Below the pieces are notes generated by a model. That model was not told where the DNA came from, did not search any database, and saw nothing but the letters and a program-made list of their open reading frames with translations. The position numbers were made by a program, and so were the translations under genes. 64,000 nucleotides of DNA from Paenibacillus sp. FSL W8-0426 (GTDB lineage: Bacteria > Bacillota > Bacilli > Paenibacillales > Paenibacillaceae): positions 3,612,001 through 3,676,000 of the forward strand of contig NZ_CP150203.1 in NCBI RefSeq assembly GCF_037969725.1, read 5' to 3'. Shown here one piece after another: positions 54,275 to 64,000 of this stretch. Within the stretch, counting starts at the first letter, position 1. Each line of letters starts with the position of its first letter.

Positions 54275-55240
54275 TTAACGGTTGTTTTTCACCAGGGATT
54301 GCGCCGTGTGCACAATGTTCTCCACCGTAATCCCGTTCATTTCAAGAAGCTTCTCATAAGGAGCAGACTCCCCAAACTTATCCTGTACACCGATTCTGCG
54401 GACGATGGCGCCTCCTTCCTCGGCGACCACTTCGCTCACGGCGCTGCCTAGCCCGTTTAGAATGTTGTGGTCTTCCACCGTAATAATCCGTCCGGTACGC
54501 AAGCAGTCCACCACGGCTTCGCGATCAAGCGGTTTAATTGTATGCATGTCAAGCAATTTTACGGACACGCCGGATTGTTCGAGAATTTCCGATGCTTCCA
54601 AAGCCAAATGGACCGTATCGCCGTTTGCAATGATGGCGACATCATTTCCGTCTTTCAGTCTTTTTGCTTTTCCGATCTCGAATTCATCGTCCTCGCCGTA
54701 GATGACCGGAATGGTATCACGCGTAAAACGGAGGTAAACCGGTCCATAGTGTTCCGCGGCCTTAGCAACCAACTTGCGGGTGGAAGCATAGTCCGCGCCC
54801 ATAATAACCGTCATGTTCGGTATGGTGCGAAGGACGCCCATGTCCTCAATCGCTTGATGGCTTCCTCCGTCGTTGGCTGGGGTCAAACCGCCATGGGAGC
54901 AGGCGATTTTTACATTCAAGTGTGGATAGCATACCTCTTGTCGAATCTGTTCCGCCATGCGCAGCGAACCAAACACCGCATACGTACTAATAAAAGGAAT
55001 TTTGCCGGTGGTCGCCAGCCCGGCTGCAAGGCCTGCCGCATTTTGCTCGGCAATCCCAACGTTAATATGCTGATTCGGAAGTTGGTTGGCAAACTCCGTC
55101 GTTTTGCACGATTTGCCGATGTCGATGTCCACAACGTAAATATTTTTGTTCTGTTTGCCAAGTTCCAAAATTTCATGTCCAAATGCGTCACGAGTCGCAA
55201 TTTTCTTAACGGTTGCTTCACTTTTTGGTGTACTCATCAT
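54275..55240 (-). CDS. Transketolase, C-terminal subunit
   Basis: 321 residues, the pyrimidine-binding plus C-terminal domains of a two-subunit transketolase. The catalytic Glu that activates thiamine diphosphate is in HINVGIAEQNAAGLAAGLA. YAVFGSLRMAEQIRQEVCY and ACSHGGLTPANDGGSHQAIED carry the substrate and phosphate-site His/Asp. The first ATG overlaps the stop of the N-terminal subunit (ATGA), so the two chains are made in equal amounts. GGGAGG precedes it. Confidence 0.93.
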   Translation of the reverse strand: MMSTPKSEATVKKIATRDAFGHEILELGKQNKNIYVVDIDIGKSCKTTEFANQLPNQHINVGIAEQNAAGLAAGLATTGKIPFISTYAVFGSLRMAEQIRQEVCYPHLNVKIACSHGGLTPANDGGSHQAIEDMGVLRTIPNMTVIMGADYASTRKLVAKAAEHYGPVYLRFTRDTIPVIYGEDDEFEIGKAKRLKDGNDVAIIANGDTVHLALEASEILEQSGVSVKLLDMHTIKPLDREAVVDCLRTGRIITVEDHNILNGLGSAVSEVVAEEGGAIVRRIGVQDKFGESAPYEKLLEMNGITVENIVHTAQSLVKNNR

Positions 55241-56070
55241 TTTAGCCCTCCCGCAAGTTCTTCCATGGCTTGCTTATACTCGGCTTCCTTCGGGGCGGCG
55301 CCATGCCAGCCGCATACGTCCTCCATGAACGAAACGCCTCTTCCTTTGACCGTGTTGCAGACGATGCAAATCGGTTTCCCATGCTTGAGATCCCTTATTT
55401 CGTCCAACGTATCTACGATCAGTCCCATGTCATGTCCGTCGATTCTTCTCGTATCGAAACCAAATGCTTTAAATTTTTGCTCCAGATCCAAGTTCGGCAT
55501 AATCTCGTCGCAAGTTCCGTCGATTTGAAGATTGTTGTCGTCCACAAAAACGATCAGGTTATCCAACTGATATTTGTTCGCCGTTTGCGCCGCTTCCCAG
55601 ATCTGCCCTTCCTGACACTCCCCGTCGCCGAGCATCGCGAACACCCGGTATGATTTGCCGTCCCTTTTGCCCGCGATCGCCATGCCTACCGCGCAGGAGA
55701 GGCCTTGACCTAAAGAACCTGTCGAAATATCAATTCCTGGACATTTTTTCATATCGGGATGTCCCTGGAACGGCGATCCATACTTACGAAGCGTATGCAC
55801 GTTTTCGAAGGGAACGAACCCTCGATGAAGCAAGGCAGCATACTGGATTGGACACACATGCCCTTTCGATAATACAAAACGATCACGGTCCTCCCATTTC
55901 GGATTCAGTGGGTCAATATTCATTTCGTTGAAATACAGCGCGGTTACGATATCCGCAGCAGACAACGATCCGCCCGGATGCCCGGATTGAGCCTCGTAAA
56001 TCATCGTAAGTGCAGTTTGTCTCAGTTCGATTGCTTTTTGTTTAAGCTCGTCGACCTTAAATTTTGTCAT
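55237..56070 (-). CDS. Transketolase, N-terminal subunit
   Basis: 277 residues from the ATG at 56070 (GAGGTG upstream). It is the diphosphate-binding half: MIYEAQSGHPGGSLSAADIVTALYF, KGHVCPIQYAALLHRGF, GSLGQGLSCAVGMA, and the thiamine motif GDGECQEGQIWEAAQTANKY...DNN. Split transketolases are usually specialised catabolic enzymes rather than the housekeeping pentose-phosphate one. Operon order here is N subunit, C subunit, SDR, with a 34-bp element shared with the transporter promoter upstream. Confidence 0.93.
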   Translation of the reverse strand: MTKFKVDELKQKAIELRQTALTMIYEAQSGHPGGSLSAADIVTALYFNEMNIDPLNPKWEDRDRFVLSKGHVCPIQYAALLHRGFVPFENVHTLRKYGSPFQGHPDMKKCPGIDISTGSLGQGLSCAVGMAIAGKRDGKSYRVFAMLGDGECQEGQIWEAAQTANKYQLDNLIVFVDDNNLQIDGTCDEIMPNLDLEQKFKAFGFDTRRIDGHDMGLIVDTLDEIRDLKHGKPICIVCNTVKGRGVSFMEDVCGWHGAAPKEAEYKQAMEELAGGLK

Positions 56071-56100
56071 TGTGCTCACCTCATTTTATGATTATATACC

Positions 56101-56134
56101 GATTTGTCATGTTGTATACTTGTATCCTAAGTTA
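56101..56134 (-). promoter_or_regulatory. 34-bp conserved operator-like element, copy upstream of the transketolase operon
   Basis: Identical to 57660-57693 at 31 of 34 positions; both contain ACTTGTATCCTAAGTTA and three spaced TTGT half-sites. It ends 31 bases upstream of the N-subunit start codon. Confidence 0.75.
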
Positions 56135-56187
56135 TTGTAAAAAAAACGAGTATTTAGATCCTTTCTTATACTCATTTTTTAAAAACA

Positions 56188-57534
56188 TTAGCCGACCTTA
56201 CTCGAGCTTGCACGATCCAACGATGTTCCTGAATGGATTTTATGGCTTTTGCCCGTTTGCTTCACCAAGAAGATGATAATTGCAGCGCTTACAATCATGC
56301 TGATCCCCAGCACAGTCAAACCGAGATTATGACTGCCTGTCATGTCATTCACAAATCCAACGAAGTATGGGCCGAAAAACCCGCCAAGGTTTCCGATACT
56401 GTTGATCAAAGCGATCGCTCCGCCAGCGGCTGCTCCCGTTAGGAAAGATGGCGGGATTGCCCAGAACGGAGAGTATGCGCCGAATGCTCCGCAAAGGCTA
56501 ACCGTTAGAAGTGCAAACGAACCGACTAGGCTGAATTCCGACACGTACAAGCTGGCTATCATTGCAATGGCACTTATCGTCAGGCAGCCGGCAACGTGAA
56601 ACTTTCGCTCATTCTTTTTGTCCGAGCTTTTTCCCACCAAATACATGACAACCATGGCACAAAGATACATGCAGCCTAGCAACCAGCCGATGCTTTGCAG
56701 ACTCCATCCGGTCGTTTCGGTTAGTCCTCTTGAAATGGTTGGCAGGAACATATTAATGCCGTAATATCCGAACATCCAGAAGAAGTAGCCGATCGCCAAA
56801 ACAAGAACATCTTTGTCCCGCAACACTTCAAGAAACGTCGGTTTTTTCACTTTTTGCTTCTCCAGCGCCTCTTTGCGGGTCACATCCAGCAGCCAAGTTT
56901 TCTCATCACCGGTCAGCCACTTGGCGTCTTCAATGCGATCCGTCAGGTAGTAATAGCAAATGATGCCCAGAATCACTGCCGGAACCGCTTCCAAAATAAA
57001 TAGCCACTGCCAACCGGAAAGTCCAAACCATTCAATCTGCAAAAGAAACGTCGATAACGGGGAACCGATTGCGTTTGCGGCCGGAATGGCGATCATGAAA
57101 CCGGCAATGGCTTTCGCGTGATGTTTGGATTGATAGAATCCACTAAGATAATGAACCATACACGGATAAAAGCTGGCTTCAGCAACGCCGAGCAAGAAGC
57201 GAACGATATAAAACTGGATCGGGGTCTGAATGAACGCCATGACGACCGCCATGATTCCCCATGTAATCATGATCCGGCTGATCCAGCGCCTTGCACCAAT
57301 CTTGGACATCATCGCGCTGCCTGGAACCTCCAACAAGAAGTACCCCAGAAAGAAAATTCCTGCACCGAAACCGTACACCGCCTCGGAAAAACCGAGTTCT
57401 TCATTCATTCGCAAGGCAGCAAAGCCGATGTTTACCCGGTCCAGAATCGAAATTGCGAAACATAAAAACAAAAAAGGGATCAATCGCATCGTTACTTTAC
57501 GAACTGTAGATTTCTCAAGCTGAAGTAGATCCAT
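56188..57534 (-). CDS. MFS transporter, anion:cation symporter (phthalate/hexuronate permease-like) family
   Basis: 448 residues, 12 helices, from the ATG at 57534 (GGGAGG seven bases upstream). RLIPFLFLCFAISILDRVNIGFAALRMNEELGFSEAVYGFGAGIFFLGYFLLEVPGS is the diagnostic start of the ACS family, which imports organic anions such as hexuronates, aldarates, tartrate or phthalate with protons or sodium. WLTGDEKTWLLD between helices 6 and 7 is also typical. The gene lies between the transketolase operon and the FCD regulator, so the transported compound is likely a sugar acid handled by the SDR and transketolase. Confidence 0.92.
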   Translation of the reverse strand: MDLLQLEKSTVRKVTMRLIPFLFLCFAISILDRVNIGFAALRMNEELGFSEAVYGFGAGIFFLGYFLLEVPGSAMMSKIGARRWISRIMITWGIMAVVMAFIQTPIQFYIVRFLLGVAEASFYPCMVHYLSGFYQSKHHAKAIAGFMIAIPAANAIGSPLSTFLLQIEWFGLSGWQWLFILEAVPAVILGIICYYYLTDRIEDAKWLTGDEKTWLLDVTRKEALEKQKVKKPTFLEVLRDKDVLVLAIGYFFWMFGYYGINMFLPTISRGLTETTGWSLQSIGWLLGCMYLCAMVVMYLVGKSSDKKNERKFHVAGCLTISAIAMIASLYVSEFSLVGSFALLTVSLCGAFGAYSPFWAIPPSFLTGAAAGGAIALINSIGNLGGFFGPYFVGFVNDMTGSHNLGLTVLGISMIVSAAIIIFLVKQTGKSHKIHSGTSLDRASSSKVG

Positions 57535-57572
57535 AGAAAATCCTCCCATTAATTAATACGAATCCATTTTTG

Positions 57573-57588
57573 ATTTAAACGCTTACAA
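57573..57588. promoter_or_regulatory. cre-like site in the transporter leader
   Basis: On the minus strand TTGTAAGCGTTTAAAT fits WTGNNARCGNWWWCAW at 15 of 16 positions. It lies about 110 bases downstream of the predicted transcription start and 39 upstream of the ATG, where CcpA could act as a roadblock. Confidence 0.45.
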
Positions 57589-57659
57589 TTTGGTTCGAAA
57601 ATGGATACCATATCTTCCATTGCAGAGTTTCCAATAGTTAATTTGCTTCACCTCCAATT

Positions 57660-57732
57660 GATTTGTAATCTTGTAAACTTGTATCCTAAGTTAACTTGTC
57701 TAGAATATAACAAGTTCATTTTTAATTGTCAA
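57660..57732 (-). promoter_or_regulatory. Promoter and operator region of the MFS transporter gene
   Basis: A near-consensus sigma-A promoter on the minus strand: TTGACA (57732-57727), 17 bases, TATATT (57709-57704). An inverted repeat AACTTGT...ACAAGTT (57693-57699 and 57710-57716) covers the -10 box, and the 34-bp element shared with 56101-56134 occupies 57660-57693, just downstream of the start point. The layout fits repression by the neighbouring FCD regulator. Confidence 0.75.
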
Positions 57733-57768
57733 TAACTGATTATAAAATTTTTAAAGAATAAGCATAAC

Positions 57769-57807
57769 AAAAATCCCTATGCCTTTACCTTATGCATAGG
57801 GATTTTT
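57769..57807 (-). terminator. Terminator of the FCD regulator gene
   Basis: AAAAATCCCTATGC and GCATAGGGATTTTT, perfect 14-bp arms with an 11-base loop, begin directly at the stop codon of the regulator gene and end in a T-run. Confidence 0.9.
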
Positions 57808-57808
57808 G

Positions 57809-58519
57809 TTAATCTTTCCAATAACGATCATAAAGATTTTGCATATGCTCCGTCATCAGCCTGACAGCGGTATCCTCTTCTTTTTGCTCAATAGCATTAA
57901 TGATTTCCTGGTGCTCTTTAAAATTAGTGTCTCTATAGTCCGGACGGGTTACTGTCCGATCCCGAATAAATCTCCACATTTCCTGCTGTTTCATTGCTTG
58001 GGTAATCACAGTCATAAACTGAATATATAGATCATTGTGCGAAGCTCGAGCAATTTCCATATGCAATCGTTCATCGGTTTCAGGCACATAGTGTCCTTTC
58101 GAAGTTTCGGACTCCATCTGTTTGATCGTTTCTCGAAGAAGAAGGATTTCTTCTTTGGTAGCCCTTTGAGCCGCCATTCTGGCAATGAGCGGTTCAATGC
58201 TCATTCTCGCTTCGACAATGTCCTCTGGAGACACCGAGTTTATTAACGATTCGTCGGTAAGCGACTCATCCTGTGCGACAATGCTTTTGACGTAGACACC
58301 TTCACCTTGTCTGGAATAAATGTACCCTTTCATCTCCAATGCACTCAGTGCTTGTCTTATAGGAGCACGGCTTACTCCAAATTGCGCACACAATTCACGT
58401 TCCGTTGGAAGCTTGTCTCCGATTTGAAACGTACCGGATTGTATCTCGGAAAGAATCTGATCATAAATCTGAATGTACAGTTTGTTGCTGGATACGCGAT
58501 TGAATTGTATTGTAATCAT
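57809..58519 (-). CDS. GntR family regulator, FadR/FCD subfamily
   Basis: 236 residues. The GntR winged helix (about 10-75) reads LYIQIYDQILSEIQSGTFQIGDKLPTERELCAQFGVSRAPIRQALSALEMKGYIYSRQGEGVYV, with the recognition helix SRAPIRQALSAL. The C-terminal FCD helical bundle (EDIVEARMSIEPLIARMAAQRA, MEIARASHNDLYIQFM, FKEHQEIINAIEQKEEDTAVRLMTEHM) has the His/Asp residues that usually bind a metal and a sugar-acid ligand. GAGGGAG precedes the ATG. It most likely controls the adjacent transporter and transketolase operon in response to the transported organic acid. Confidence 0.92.
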   Translation of the reverse strand: MITIQFNRVSSNKLYIQIYDQILSEIQSGTFQIGDKLPTERELCAQFGVSRAPIRQALSALEMKGYIYSRQGEGVYVKSIVAQDESLTDESLINSVSPEDIVEARMSIEPLIARMAAQRATKEEILLLRETIKQMESETSKGHYVPETDERLHMEIARASHNDLYIQFMTVITQAMKQQEMWRFIRDRTVTRPDYRDTNFKEHQEIINAIEQKEEDTAVRLMTEHMQNLYDRYWKD

Positions 58520-58726: not shown

Positions 58727-60400
58727 TTAAGGCTGAATGACAAATGTCGTTACGCTCTGGGCTGGAAGGTTTGCCGTAAATCCATTGCCGGATATCTGGA
58801 GTGAGGAGCCTGCCGCCAGATTGCGCGTGCTATCCGTGATCCAGGAGGATACGGCGGATCCCTTTACATTTTTCACCTTGAATCGCTGATTCACGTCCGA
58901 TGTATTTTTGTTAATAGCGACAATGACGATCTTGTTGTTGTCTCCCTTGTACGCCGAGACATACACGCCGTTCGCCGGATTTTTGGTTGCATCTACCCTG
59001 ACGTCTCCAGGACGGATGAATTTGGAGTAATGAGCCATACTGTAGCCGCGTTTGCTAATGGTTCCGTCTTCCTTGATCGGACCATAATGTCTGCGAATGT
59101 ACCACCATACATAAGCCTGGAAGTTCCCTTCAACCATGGCGTTATACATGTGCTCCGCAACACCCAACGCCTCCGGCCAGCGATCTGCCGAGTCGGTTTC
59201 GCTGTTTGGATAGTAGACTTCGGTCATCCATAGCTCCTTGCCTGCACCCTTTTGCTCGTACAATGGATATGGAAAATCACTGTATTGTGTGCCATACGTA
59301 TGTGCTCCGAGAATATCGAGATTGGCGAGCGCTTGTGGATCATTTAAAATCGGATCCGACATTTGTTTCACATAGGAGAAGGACTCCGGCGCAATGACCC
59401 TGTTGTTGATCGAGCCTGCATTTTCTTTCATGAATCGCAGCATCTCCTCCGGAGACCACCAGGTCCAGTCATGGGCGTAATCCGGCTCGTTCTGGACGGA
59501 AATGGCATACAGGTTCACGCCGTTATTTTTCATAAACGTATCGAACTCATTCAAATACTGTGAGTAGGCATCATACTTGTCGTATTTGAGCCGTTTGGCC
59601 TGTGTGTCCTGAACATAAGCCGTCACATTGATATTGTCGATGTTCGGTCCACCTGTTCCCGTGGACACCAGCTTTAAGGTACTCGTTCCATTGACCATCG
59701 GAACCTGAATCGATTTTTCCTTCCACGTATCCCCACTGCCCGTGGCTTCAAAAGGAACATTGCTAAGTTCTAATGTACCGTTCACATATACATCCAGATT
59801 ACTCGTCCCTGACGGAAGCGAATAACGAATCTTTACGTTTTTGGTGCCTGTGCTGCCAATCAGGATTGTATTCCACAGAACAGCCGAGCCGCTCGCATTT
59901 TGAAAATGAACATAACCCGTTCCCGTATAGCCTGAAAATGAATTCGCTACCGCTGCTCCGGTCAACGTTGTCGTTGATTCGGCTTCATACGTCGAACCGT
60001 TGCCCGAAGTCATGCCAAGCGTGAAGGTTTCCGTCATGTCACTCGGCGGATTCCATGGAGAGGCGAATACAATCGCCCCGTGTTCAATCGCTTTTTTGGC
60101 CGTTTCCACTTCCCGCTGCCAATTGTTTTTGTTTTCGTCGATCGGGATACGCAGCACAGAGAAGCCCAGCTGATTCGCACCATTGCCAAAAGCCGTTTCT
60201 CTTTCTGCTGCGGTCAGATCACCAATCCAGCCCGAATGTGTCATTCCGCCAAAACCACGAATAACCTGTTTTTGCGAAGAGACATTAATGACGACATCGT
60301 TAGCTGCCATCACTCTGGAAGCCGCGGGCACAAAAAACAAGGGCAAAGCTGTCGCCACAGCCAGTACGGTACAGAACGATTTTTTCATGAAAGTATTCAC
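58727..60400 (-). CDS. xynC: GH30 subfamily 8 glucuronoxylanase with an inserted carbohydrate-binding module
   Basis: 557 residues, GTG start behind CGGGAG. A signal peptide (about 1-32) ends at VMAA. The GH30_8 domain starts IRGFGGMTHSGWIGDL and is very close to XynC enzymes, which cut glucuronoxylan at a fixed distance from methylglucuronic acid. The acid/base is Glu305 (SVQNEPDYAHDW), the nucleophile Glu394 (LWMTEVYYPNS), and the glucuronate-binding Arg loop is YIRRHYGPIKEDG (about 434-446). Between FASPWNPPSDMTETF (to 126) and RLKYDKYDAYSQYLNEF (from 270), adjacent in ordinary XynC, lie about 140 extra residues with CBM35/6 character (STYEAESTTTLTG, YTGTGYVHFQNA, IDNINVTAY). It ends with the usual beta-sandwich (SVTTFVIQP). 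It is the last gene behind an importer. Confidence 0.93.
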   Translation of the reverse strand: MNTFMKKSFCTVLAVATALPLFFVPAASRVMAANDVVINVSSQKQVIRGFGGMTHSGWIGDLTAAERETAFGNGANQLGFSVLRIPIDENKNNWQREVETAKKAIEHGAIVFASPWNPPSDMTETFTLGMTSGNGSTYEAESTTTLTGAAVANSFSGYTGTGYVHFQNASGSAVLWNTILIGSTGTKNVKIRYSLPSGTSNLDVYVNGTLELSNVPFEATGSGDTWKEKSIQVPMVNGTSTLKLVSTGTGGPNIDNINVTAYVQDTQAKRLKYDKYDAYSQYLNEFDTFMKNNGVNLYAISVQNEPDYAHDWTWWSPEEMLRFMKENAGSINNRVIAPESFSYVKQMSDPILNDPQALANLDILGAHTYGTQYSDFPYPLYEQKGAGKELWMTEVYYPNSETDSADRWPEALGVAEHMYNAMVEGNFQAYVWWYIRRHYGPIKEDGTISKRGYSMAHYSKFIRPGDVRVDATKNPANGVYVSAYKGDNNKIVIVAINKNTSDVNQRFKVKNVKGSAVSSWITDSTRNLAAGSSLQISGNGFTANLPAQSVTTFVIQP

Positions 60401-60444: not shown

Positions 60445-61365
60445 TTACCCCTTCACACCTCCAATCGTCATCCCCTGTACGAAGTATTTCTGGAGGAACG
60501 GGTACACCATCAGAATCGGAACGCTGGCTATGATGGTCATGGTGGCCCGAATGGAAGTCGGCGTAACAGCAACCCCGCTGTTCTCGGCCGACTGGTATGC
60601 ATCACTTGCCGATGAGGTTGCCGCAGTCGTCGATGTCTGCAAAATCTTCATTAATTCATATTGCAGGGTGCTGAGTTCCTTGTTGGATGAATTGTACAGA
60701 AATACGTCGAACCAGGAATTCCACTGACCTACAGCCACAAAGAGTGATACCGTTGCCATTGCCGGAATGGTTAAGGGAAGGACAACACGGATGAATGTCG
60801 TAAACTCCCCTGCCCCGTCAATGCGGGCTGACTCGAGAATGCCCTCAGGCAACCCTTCGATAAACGAGCGGATCACGATCATGTTGAACACTCCAATCAC
60901 TCCGGGAATGATATAGACCCAGAAGGAGCCAATCAGCCCGAGATCACGAATCAACAGATACCCTGGAATCAGCCCTCCGCTGAAGTACATCGTAAATACA
61001 AAGAACATGGTCACAAACTTGCGAAGCACAAATTCCTGCCGACTGAGCGTATAGGCAAGCATGGCGGTACAGAAAACGGACACGATCGTCCCGATGATCG
61101 TACGAAGCGCCGAGATCAGCGTGGCATGGTAGATGTCGGATTCCCCAAAGATATATTTGTAATTATCCAGTGTCCACACACGGGGCCACAGATAGATCCC
61201 CCCGCGAATGGCGTCGTTGGCGTCATTGAGGGAAACGGCTATCATATTGAGAAAAGGGTAGATCGTGACAATCATCAAACAGACCATAAATATGATATTA
61301 AATGCATCAAACGCCCGGTCCCCGGCGCTGCTGTTCCGCAAGCGGGATGATTTTGCTTTTGGCAT
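60445..61365 (-). CDS. Carbohydrate ABC transporter permease, YtcP type
   Basis: 306 residues, six helices, GGAGG before the ATG. The EAA loop is ILESARIDGAGEFTTFIRVVLPLTIP and the end is YFVQGMTIGGVKG. It has a 25-residue Ser/Thr/Ala-rich insertion before the last helices (TSTTAATSSASDAYQSAENSG) seen in xylo-oligosaccharide-type members of this branch. It lies 44 nt before the GH30 xylanase, so the importer probably takes up glucuronoxylan fragments. Confidence 0.92.
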   Translation of the reverse strand: MPKAKSSRLRNSSAGDRAFDAFNIIFMVCLMIVTIYPFLNMIAVSLNDANDAIRGGIYLWPRVWTLDNYKYIFGESDIYHATLISALRTIIGTIVSVFCTAMLAYTLSRQEFVLRKFVTMFFVFTMYFSGGLIPGYLLIRDLGLIGSFWVYIIPGVIGVFNMIVIRSFIEGLPEGILESARIDGAGEFTTFIRVVLPLTIPAMATVSLFVAVGQWNSWFDVFLYNSSNKELSTLQYELMKILQTSTTAATSSASDAYQSAENSGVAVTPTSIRATMTIIASVPILMVYPFLQKYFVQGMTIGGVKG

Positions 61366-61380: not shown

Positions 61381-62352
61381 TTAGAATAATCTGCTTTCTC
61401 CCATTTTTTTCGCAATGTAGTTGGCGGTGAAGAGGAAGATGAAGCTGACCACGGTCTTGAAAATACCTGCCGCTGTACCCAAGGAGAAGTTCCCCATTCC
61501 GAGACCATACTTCAGTACAAAGATATCCAGGTTTTCTGAATAATCCATATTCATTCCGTTGCCCAGCAAGTATTGAGGTTCAAATCCGGATTCCAGGATG
61601 CTGCCCATATTCATAATGAGCAAAATAACGATAACCGGCTTCAAGCCTGGCAGCGTAATATACAGCATGCGTTTGAACCGGCTGGCTCCGTCAATCTCCG
61701 CAGCCTCATACTGGGCAGGATCAATCGCCGTGATTGCCGCCAGATAGATGATGGTGTTCCAGCCAACGTCTTTCCACACCTCGGTAGCGCCCAGTATGCC
61801 CCAGAAATACTCCCCTTTCCCCATCCACAACACCGGACTGTCGATCAGGTGAAGCTTCATGAGCAGCAGATTGATAATGCCGTCTGGTGACAATACGGTC
61901 AGGACGATGCTCGAAGCGACAACCCAGGAAATAAAGTGAGGCAGATAGCTGACCGTTTGCACAAAACGTTTAAAAATGATATTCTTCAGCTCATTTAACA
62001 AAAGCGCCAGCGTAATTGCGGTAACAAACCCAAGCACCAGTTTGATCGAACTCATGACAAGCGTATTTCGCAGCACCCGATAGAAGGTATGATCCTCAAA
62101 GAGGGTCTGAAAATGTTTCCATCCCACCCACTGCTGATCCGTAAATGCTCTGGCCGGCTTGAAGTTCTGGAAAGCCATCGTCCAGCCCCATAATGGCAAA
62201 TACTTGAAGACAAACGCCCAGACGACAAAAGGAATACACATCCAGGCCAGCGTTCGTTGCTGCACAAGTCGTTTCCAAAAAGAGGTTGCTATGGTTCCCT
62301 TCGGGCCGGAAGCCGGCGGCATAGCTTGAAGAGATGCATTCGGTTTCTCCAC
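61381..62352 (-). CDS. Carbohydrate ABC transporter permease, LplB type
   Basis: 323 residues from a GTG at 62352, nine bases after AAAGGAGC. First helix CIPFVVWAFVFKYLPLWGWTMAFQNFKP, EAA loop QYEAAEIDGASRFKRMLYITLPG, and C-terminal ANYIAKKMGESRLF are as expected. It is 15 nt upstream of the YtcP-like partner and follows the binding-protein gene by 107 nt. Confidence 0.92.
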   Translation of the reverse strand: MEKPNASLQAMPPASGPKGTIATSFWKRLVQQRTLAWMCIPFVVWAFVFKYLPLWGWTMAFQNFKPARAFTDQQWVGWKHFQTLFEDHTFYRVLRNTLVMSSIKLVLGFVTAITLALLLNELKNIIFKRFVQTVSYLPHFISWVVASSIVLTVLSPDGIINLLLMKLHLIDSPVLWMGKGEYFWGILGATEVWKDVGWNTIIYLAAITAIDPAQYEAAEIDGASRFKRMLYITLPGLKPVIVILLIMNMGSILESGFEPQYLLGNGMNMDYSENLDIFVLKYGLGMGNFSLGTAAGIFKTVVSFIFLFTANYIAKKMGESRLF

Positions 62353-62459: not shown

Positions 62460-64000
62460 TTACCATTTGCCTGCAATCCGGTTTTGGACAATCTCGGTGA
62501 TGGTTTTCTCGTAGCCTGCTTTGTCCAGCTTGTTCAATTCGGTCATGTAGGCATTCCACAGATTGTCGAAGTTCGCTGGTGTACCCAGGATCATCTCGGG
62601 CAAATATTTACGCTGCAAATCATCCGATTTCGTTGTAAAAATCTGTTCCGGTGAGCCCTGCTCCAGTGCAATGGACCATGCTGGGAACCACGGACGCTCT
62701 TCCGGCTTGTTGAATAGTTCACTAAAGCTCTGGATGCCGTAGGCTTCTAGGAATTTCTTATCTCCTTCGGTGTATGTTGCCGCGACTACTTCAGGCTGAT
62801 TCCCCGGACTGTATGCGTTTCCATCAGAGAGGGTGGATTCTCCTCCATAGCGCGGCCAGTCTGTACCGAAATACGTAAAGCCGAATTTGCGGCTCAACTC
62901 CAGATCATCATGCATTTTCCGTTGATCATCGTTCGCATAATAGTAGCGGCCTTTTTCATCCACGCTGTAGGTTTCATCCTTGATGCCCCACTGTACCAAA
63001 ATCTGATTCTCTTCTTTCAGCAAATTGTCAAAATACTTGATGATACGTACCGGGTCTTTGGCATTAACCGAAATTCCGGTTGCATAGTTGTTTACAAAGC
63101 CGGGAGGATCAATGTACTGATCCTTGATGCTCTTGTCAAAGACAATCGGAAGAGGTGCATAACGCTTCTCATCAATGCCTGCTGCAAGCAGGTTTTTGGA
63201 GGCATCCCCGATCTGCCAGCCATAGTTAAAATATCCGAGAACACGACCCGAAGTCAGTTTGGCCAGATATTGGTCCTTGTTCATCGTGAAGGACTCCGGA
63301 TCAAGCATGCCTTTGGCGTTAATTTCGTTCAGCTTCTTGATCCACCGTTTCTGCTCATCGGTTCCGGCAACCACCTTGGCTTCATGGGTCTTCATATCGA
63401 CCATAACGCTGCCGTCATTCGGATATCCAGCGAGGTGCATGGCCGGATTTTGCAGGGTGAAAAAGTTGTTGGCTACGCCCGCAAGGGATACAAAACCGAT
63501 CGTTTCCGCTCCGTCAACCGTAGGATGTTTCTCCTTGTAGTCCTCGATCAGGTCGAAGTATTCGTCCAGCGTAGTTATCTTCGGATAGTCAAACTCCTTA
63601 AGCACAGAACGCTGAATCCAGAAAGCTCCCCCGCCTATATTGGGGCTGCCCGAGTATTCTCCCTGATTGGCTGTATACGGCAGCGCGTAGATTTTTCCGT
63701 CTTCCGCGTTTCTCATTTTGTCAAAGTACGGTCCATACACCTTCTTGATATTCGGTCCGTACTCCTCAATCAGATCATCCAGCGGAATGTAAGCTCCGGC
63801 ATCCAGCAGCTTCGACATCTCTCCGCTGGAGCTGATGACATCCGGGTAGTCTCCGCTCGCAATCATGACGCCGGCCTTGGTCGCGCTGTCCCCAACCAGG
63901 TATTCCATTTTCCAGTCCACGCCCGTCTGTTCCTGCAAGGCCTTGCCAATCGTTGTTTCACTTGCCAAGGTGTCCTTCTTGCCCGAAGAGAACAGGTAAT
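62460..64000 (-). CDS. Extracellular solute-binding protein, LplA-like, 5' end off the window
   Basis: The frame stays open to the right edge (513 codons seen). The first residues visible (LFSSGKKDTLASETTIGKALQEQTGVDWKMEYL region) are already the mature N-terminal lobe, so the signal peptide and lipobox are outside. MIASGDYPDVISSSGEMSKLLDAGAYIPLDDLIEEYGPNIK, FDYPKITTLDEYFDLIEDYKEKHP and the C-terminal LDKAGYEKTITEIVQNRIAGKW place it in the large LplA-like branch. It should be the specificity component of the xylanase-linked importer encoded next. Confidence 0.9.
   Translation of the reverse strand, partial: YLFSSGKKDTLASETTIGKALQEQTGVDWKMEYLVGDSATKAGVMIASGDYPDVISSSGEMSKLLDAGAYIPLDDLIEEYGPNIKKVYGPYFDKMRNAEDGKIYALPYTANQGEYSGSPNIGGGAFWIQRSVLKEFDYPKITTLDEYFDLIEDYKEKHPTVDGAETIGFVSLAGVANNFFTLQNPAMHLAGYPNDGSVMVDMKTHEAKVVAGTDEQKRWIKKLNEINAKGMLDPESFTMNKDQYLAKLTSGRVLGYFNYGWQIGDASKNLLAAGIDEKRYAPLPIVFDKSIKDQYIDPPGFVNNYATGISVNAKDPVRIIKYFDNLLKEENQILVQWGIKDETYSVDEKGRYYYANDDQRKMHDDLELSRKFGFTYFGTDWPRYGGESTLSDGNAYSPGNQPEVVAATYTEGDKKFLEAYGIQSFSELFNKPEERPWFPAWSIALEQGSPEQIFTTKSDDLQRKYLPEMILGTPANFDNLWNAYMTELNKLDKAGYEKTITEIVQNRIAGKW

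Follow-up and report, generated by a model that had tools for sequence, protein, structure and literature searches.

A glucuronoxylanase with a carbohydrate-binding module inside its catalytic barrel

We analyzed a xylanase gene in a 64,000-nucleotide stretch of the genome of the soil bacterium Paenibacillus sp. FSL W8-0426 (contig NZ_CP150203.1, positions 3,612,001 to 3,676,000; hereafter the window). The gene (58727..60400, minus strand) codes for a 557-residue protein with a GTG start codon and an alternative ATG at 60388. Judging from its sequence, the product is a secreted glycoside hydrolase family 30, subfamily 8 (GH30_8) glucuronoxylanase of the XynC type, for which dependence on xylan substituted with methylglucuronic acid (MeGlcA) is expected. 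The protein scored 724.7 bits against the NCBIfam XynC equivalog NF052681 (cut-off 650), despite a match that is split in two. A probable Sec signal peptide (residues 1-32; 60305..60400) precedes the first part of the catalytic domain (residues 33-126; 60023..60304). The second part (residues 265-557; 58730..59608) completes the barrel and contains the side beta domain. The two flanks align to residues 2-96 and 100-389 of XynC (3gtn) and also match Xyn30D, and they supply the TIM (triosephosphate isomerase) barrel and side beta domain of XynC-type enzymes. The protein ends after the catalytic domain, with no further C-terminal module.

In comparisons with solved structures, the GH30 match stops after residue 127 and restarts at residue 265. 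The inserted segment (residues 127-264; 59609..60022, minus strand) contains a family 35 carbohydrate-binding module (CBM35). We delimited the domain proper to residues 138-261 (59618..59989) using profiles, structure-sequence matches and a separate structure prediction. The insert aligns to the C-terminal CBM35 of Xyn30D. Pfam profiles for CBM_6 (E 1.6e-14; score 54.7, cut-off 28.9) and CBM_35 (E 6.8e-12; 46.2, cut-off 28) both matched residues ~137-259, with CBM_6 scoring higher. The insert was predicted in isolation as a CBM35 beta-sandwich with a predicted local distance difference test (pLDDT) score of 92.1. A sequence-only reading of this gene had described a GH30_8 enzyme interrupted between normally adjacent segments by roughly 140 residues of CBM35/6 type. 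That description was accurate, and the isolated prediction agrees with an independent fold for the 138-residue insert.

We located the insertion site by aligning 27 insert-free GH30 cores, which have about four residues (mostly N-R-N-G) where the window enzyme has 138. The ordinary loop reads ETF-NRNG-DT-AKRL or a near variant; in the window enzyme, residues 127-264 stand where the loop-3 hairpin would have its NRNG tip. The whole enzyme was predicted with a pLDDT of 88.4 and a predicted template modeling (pTM) score of 0.78. Strand beta3 (residues 110-115; 60056-60073) and helix alpha3 (residues 273-292; 59525-59584) flank the insert in this model, which places it in the beta3-alpha3 loop, an early barrel loop as first proposed. 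In the model, the two hairpin strands continue as the module's first and last strands (residues 91-107 and 221-239 in model numbering), which yields a predicted two-stranded arm with block pLDDT values of 84-94. The lengths of the two arm segments are constant, at 16 and 13 residues in all 22 distinct enzymes with a module at this site (hereafter nested enzymes); the 36 C-terminal CBM35 linkers that we measured span 9-23 residues. The arm may be stiff.

The insert replaces part of the support of a structural element that has been described in XynC-type enzymes. According to the available text of PMC12921914, these enzymes have a beta motif after loop 3 that is fixed by the stacking of Arg96 (loop 3) on Trp147 (loop 4) and by a Lys102 contact. 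The tip bearing Arg96 is replaced by the insert. The Trp147 equivalent, W314, is kept in 22/22 nested enzymes, and the Lys102 equivalent, K269, is Lys in 21 and Arg in one.

The active site of the barrel appears intact. We assigned its residues by reference to BpXyn30_8A, for which the available text of PMC12921914 identifies Glu138, Glu227 and Arg270. The corresponding residues of the window enzyme are the catalytic acid/base E305 (59486..59488, minus strand), the catalytic nucleophile E394 (59219..59221) and R437 (59090..59092), which binds the MeGlcA carboxylate in subsite -2b. All three are kept in 22/22 nested enzymes, as the sequence-only reading had claimed for the window enzyme. The full subsite -2b set (R437, Y396, Y439, S400 and W433) is likewise present in each of the 22 in the alignment.

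Loss of uronate-binding residues in the nested module

We compared the 22 distinct nested inserts with 49 distinct C-terminal CBM35s. The binding features of CBM35/6 modules are a region A Trp, a region C Asn, a region E Asn and a basic Arg (PMC9843283, available in part). We placed these at residues 223, 253, 165 and 200, respectively, by alignment to solved CBM35s. The Trp, Asn253 and Arg are found at the assigned places in 4qb1, 2vzp, 2w47, 2w3j and 2w87, with the Arg of 2vzp falling one column off at a gap in one alignment and lining up in two others. The region E position is Asn in 4qb1, 2vzp, 2w47 and 2w87 and Asp in 2w3j. Uronate ligands are named in the structure titles of 4qb2, 2vzr, 2w47 and 2w87.

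Three of the four binding residues are missing from the window enzyme. G223 (59732..59734, minus strand) stands in place of the region A stacking Trp, which is present in 49/49 C-terminal modules and 6/22 nested ones; the other 16 have Gly, Leu, Pro or Ser. The basic Arg is replaced by S200 (59801..59803; Arg in 49/49 versus 2/22), and the region E Asn by H165 (59906..59908; Asn in 47/49 versus 5/22). The region C residue, N253 (59642..59644), is retained, as in 17/22 nested and 49/49 C-terminal modules. The complete four-residue site is found in 47/49 C-terminal modules and in none of the 22 nested ones. Three nested modules keep three of the four residues: L016 and L055 have Arg200, Trp223 and Asn253, and L045 has all but Arg200. 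At position 155, the place of the region D2 His, residues vary in both sets, with Tyr or Asn the most common among the C-terminal modules as well. Because the nested rows form one clade, the site losses represent few evolutionary events rather than 22. The unrooted minimum number of changes between kept and lost states is four for Trp223, three each for Asn165 and Asn253, and one for Arg200.

The rest of the module is better conserved. The structural-calcium residues E139, E141 and D255, identified from the calcium ligands of CBM35 given in the available part of PMC9843283, are kept in 21, 22 and 22 of the 22 nested modules. As a control, we examined the 41 columns that are at least 95% invariant in the C-terminal set. 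Twenty-nine of these are retained in at least 18/22 nested modules, E141 and D255 in all of them, and the most altered columns are 230 (Thr to Ser), 200, 165, 223, 250 and 240. The nested set also has near-invariant residues of its own: Q167 (22/22 versus 2/49 C-terminal), G182 (22/22 versus 0/49), I181 (21/22 versus 0/49) and S230 (22/22 versus 1/49). By these alignments, the nested module has lost most of the canonical uronate-binding site, with its fold and structural-calcium residues kept.

Origin and distribution of the nested enzymes

We searched for the same insertion point in other GH30_8 proteins, as the sequence-only reading had suggested, and found 32 nested loci, all within Paenibacillales in the samples taken. 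These gave the 22 distinct inserts after exclusion of L007, L049-L054 and L056-L058, which are identical to included rows. The alignment also excludes L104 (a stop codon in the slice), L098 (a match in two frames), the broken L059 and a second copy in genome G265.

The 22 nested rows group together in the core tree (support 92/68), with 0/27 insert-free rows inside the group. The nested group is united at 96/96 with the insert-free enzyme of Paenibacillus turicensis (L096), which has a C-terminal CBM35. The nested inserts also group together in the module trees (100/99). A module tree rooted on 15 outgroup rows places them among GH30-type CBM35s, and the deciding fork, which leaves the C-terminal CBM35 of L091 outside, has support 91/79. 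This tree contains 25 of the 49 C-terminal CBM35s, and its outgroup rows represent 12 distinct sequences, some with long-branch warnings. Given the core and module trees, the simplest history is a single insertion of a module drawn from the GH30-type CBM35 lineage, with moderate support for core monophyly. Three nested enzymes (L014, L015 and L044) also keep a C-terminal CBM35 that groups with that of L096. We considered whether the insert is a copy of the C-terminal CBM35 of this sister lineage. The trees do not support this origin, as the C-terminal modules of L096, L014, L015 and L044 lie on another branch.

We estimated the ratio of nonsynonymous to synonymous change (dN/dS) for 21 window-clade pairs. 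The module gave values of 0.046-0.105 and the core 0.020-0.052, with synonymous change near saturation in many pairs. These ratios indicate that the module is under purifying selection and not free to decay.

An uninterrupted nested gene is present in 11/75 Paenibacillus genomes of our genus sample and in 22/392 genomes of our order sample. Its 23 locations in the order sample are spread over two families and six genus-level groups. Ten named Paenibacillus records are nested, including P. barcinonensis, P. amylolyticus, P. xylanexedens, P. polysaccharolyticus and P. farraposensis. Since uninterrupted copies recur in the order sample and in these records, we reject an assembly artefact or chance, and recurrence in the genus sample as well rules out a one-off oddity. 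Any match at all was found in 13 of 398 genomes of a phylum sample, and the nested form in the window's own genome only. No nested form outside Paenibacillales appeared among 79 loci (from the best 80 of 90 matches), a sample rather than proof of absence. One apparent exception in our tables, Lachnotalea glycerini L086, was rejected: it has three GH30-type CBM35 domains within ~5.5 kb, one C-terminal to a GH30_8 enzyme, and all are C-terminal or separate. The insertion had been called rare, which is half right. It is better described as a recurring Paenibacillales subtype, and GH10 enzymes are known that have CBMs inserted at the same beta3-alpha3 position (PMC7848910, available in part).

At least 10 of the 11 nested genus members also encode an ordinary GH30_8 enzyme, as does the window's own genome (G000:C1:5821722-5823383). 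In P. barcinonensis CECT 7022, the nested enzyme L051 occurs together with a GH30_8 enzyme whose CBM35 is C-terminal (L071). Broken nested genes occur at G007:C1:5107844-5108320 and G061:C1:4566999-4567716, so the nested gene is dispensable in some lineages. The P. brasilensis piece L059 is probably the same as the broken G007 copy, since their coordinates are identical. A short interrupted CBM35-like piece lies elsewhere in the window's genome (G000:C1:3381951-3382205).

Other nested enzymes that we scanned carry additional domains: cohesin, dockerin and FIVAR (below cut-off); SLH with fn3; FIMAH; or GH43 with CBM4_9 and fn3. At L055:4689-10571, nested GH30_8, GH43, CBM4_9 and fn3 share one frame of at least 1961 residues that runs to the end of the locus. 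At L131:4369-11347 (genome G213), a GH43 gene lies beside the nested GH30 gene, the two products share a C-terminal tail of cohesin, FIVAR (below cut-off) and dockerin, and a gene for an SLH-domain protein follows. This set resembles a small complex on the cell surface in Paenibacillales. L057 has the same gene order and sequence ends as L131.

Relation to known systems

We compared the window enzyme to other enzymes with related modules. Xyn30D from P. barcinonensis (4qaw, 4qb1, 4qb2) belongs to the same GH30_8 subfamily and carries a CBM35 of the same lineage. However, its CBM35, solved together with glucuronic acid (title of 4qb2), comes after the catalytic domain, whereas the window CBM35 lies inside the barrel and has a degraded uronate site. 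The GH66 cycloisomaltooligosaccharide glucanotransferase (3wnk, 5x7g) also has a CBM35 nested in its barrel, at about residues 400-528 of ~720, but differs in catalytic family and substrate.

GH10 and GH30 both belong to clan GH-A. The Xyn10C-like GH10 xylanases of Bacteroidetes, such as Pm25, are TIM-barrel enzymes that carry CBMs inserted between beta3 and alpha3, according to the available text of PMC7848910. The number of CBMs ranges from one to three, and they belong to family 4 or 22 or are unclassified; the enzymes are encoded in polysaccharide utilization loci. The window enzyme has a GH30 rather than a GH10 catalytic domain, and the likeness is in the insertion site only. The same text reports that Pm25 uses its CBM4s on complex biomass and stays catalytically functional when they are removed. 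It also cites SusG, in which CBM58 is inserted in the catalytic domain (domain B); SusG is a GH13 amylase with another CBM in another place.

Domain N1 of dextran dextrinase (9ju0) provides a precedent for a structural CBM35-like domain. It lacks sugar-binding residues, touches the catalytic loops and is required for activity (PMC12446779, available in part). Unlike the nested module, N1 is N-terminal, belongs to a GH15-like enzyme and forms intra- and inter-subunit interfaces. We found no GH30 enzyme with a CBM inside its catalytic domain in the open-access literature searched, available in part and with subscription papers outside its scope. TIM-barrel xylanases with a CBM nested at beta3-alpha3 were already known; what is new is the family and site (GH30_8, CBM35) and the lost binding site.

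Proposed role of the nested module

We propose that the nested module is a rigidly held structural or cleft-shaping part rather than an ordinary glucuronate-targeting module, and we give this reading a probability of roughly one half. Alignment and trees suggest that the loop-3 (beta3-alpha3) hairpin acquired at its tip, in a single event, a CBM35 from the C-terminal GH30_8 lineage. The predicted continuation of the hairpin into the module's end strands would give a ribbon of fixed length, presumably stiff, near the cleft. With the fold and calcium residues kept and most of the uronate site lost, the module would no longer serve mainly in glucuronate targeting and may instead stabilize or extend the loop-3/loop-4 side of the cleft. 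The barrel would cleave glucuronoxylan through the usual mechanism of XynC, and the products would be imported by an ABC (ATP-binding cassette) transporter encoded alongside. A more specific version is tentative and somewhat doubtful: that the CBM35 gave up uronate binding to become part of the barrel, where it would control cleavage pattern or processivity as a stiff lid or wall.

Several points weigh against a structural role. The intact C-terminal CBM35 of Xyn30D likewise gave no contribution to catalysis (cited by PMC9996879, available in part), and Pm25 was nearly unchanged on xylan without its nested CBMs, as stated in the available part of PMC7848910. The orientation of the module is predicted, in a model with the pTM given above. 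The region E and basic Arg positions are our own assignments by alignment, and the site losses reflect the few events of a single clade. Sugar binding may partly survive, as the window enzyme keeps Asn253 and L016, L055 and L045 keep three site residues. The module also evolves faster than the core.

The main rival is altered ligand binding. On this view the nested module would still function as a CBM, but its ligand or its site would have changed (to the xylan chain or another decoration, for instance), and it would pass substrate straight to the neighboring cleft. Q167, I181, G182 and S230 are as compatible with a new ligand site as with a domain interface, and the strong purifying selection on the module also fits this rival. 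Ligands differ within the CBM35/6 families (PMC9843283, available in part), and Pm25 uses CBM4s in the same loop on complex biomass. The absence of the stacking Trp from most nested modules argues against such a site. We regard a changed ligand as possible, though well short of even odds. The dextran dextrinase precedent and the Pm25 counter-precedent point in opposite directions, and sequence alone cannot choose between them. The earlier suggestion that the module could alter substrate choice by acting as a CBM is unsupported in that form; with the uronate site mostly gone, any effect on substrate is more likely structural or exerted through a changed ligand.

It is improbable that the insert is a functionless passenger tolerated by the hairpin tip. 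The almost identical xylan-degrading profile of Pm25 without its CBMs (PMC7848910, available in part), the faster evolution of the insert and the broken genes in G007 and G061 would fit a passenger, but the low dN/dS of the module, the fixed linker lengths, the new near-invariant residues and the lack of insert-free rows within the nested group all argue against it. The reading implied at first, an ordinary uronate-targeting CBM35 in an unusual place, is the least probable: the module is close kin of the glucuronate-binding Xyn30D CBM35 and retains its calcium residues and, in the window enzyme, N253, with L016, L045 and L055 closest to a full site, but no nested module has the complete site found in nearly all C-terminal ones.

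GH30_8 enzymes are of interest for producing defined acidic xylo-oligosaccharides. Control of their cleavage pattern by loops 3 and 4 was put forward as a hypothesis in a 2026 structure paper (PMC12921914, available in part). This hypothesis becomes directly testable with a natural family that has an entire domain at loop 3, together with insert-free sisters and same-cell paralogues. A CBM that lost its canonical site once nested also bears on how binding modules turn structural. If the lid or wall version is true, the beta3-alpha3 loop of clan GH-A xylanases, counting GH10 Xyn10C, would be a repeatedly used insertion slot. The family would then also offer a before-and-after series for the conversion of a binding module to a scaffold, comprising insert-free L096 and nested enzymes with and without the old C-terminal CBM35.

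Genomic neighborhood

The xylanase gene lies directly downstream of ABC transporter genes on the same strand. The gene just upstream codes for a permease (60445..61365, BPD_transp_1), and upstream of it lie genes for a second permease assigned by profile match and conserved order (61381..62352) and for a solute-binding protein (62460..64000, SBP_bac_8/SBP_bac_1) whose start lies beyond the window end and which we read from L128. The order of codirectional genes for solute-binding protein, two permeases and xylanase is kept in 6/6 named records of the window clade (L049-L053 and L058). It was not found at nested records L054, L055 and L057, and the permeases are more distant at L056. The genes farther upstream, beyond the window end, encode another solute-binding protein along with a sensor kinase and a response regulator. 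Aldouronate use in Paenibacillus JDR-2 is served by a cluster that includes regulators and ABC transporters (PMC4765114, available in part). By analogy, xylan cutting is likely coupled to product uptake by the co-encoded transporter at the nested-xylanase locus.

The solute-binding protein genes stand in tandem before the one permease pair (L128:6460-9838, corresponding to window position 62460 and beyond), and their products perhaps have different ligands. On the other side of the xylanase gene, positions 54275-58519 contain genes for two transketolase half-subunits, a major facilitator superfamily transporter and a GntR/FCD regulator. This adjoining cluster probably serves the use of a sugar or sugar acid.
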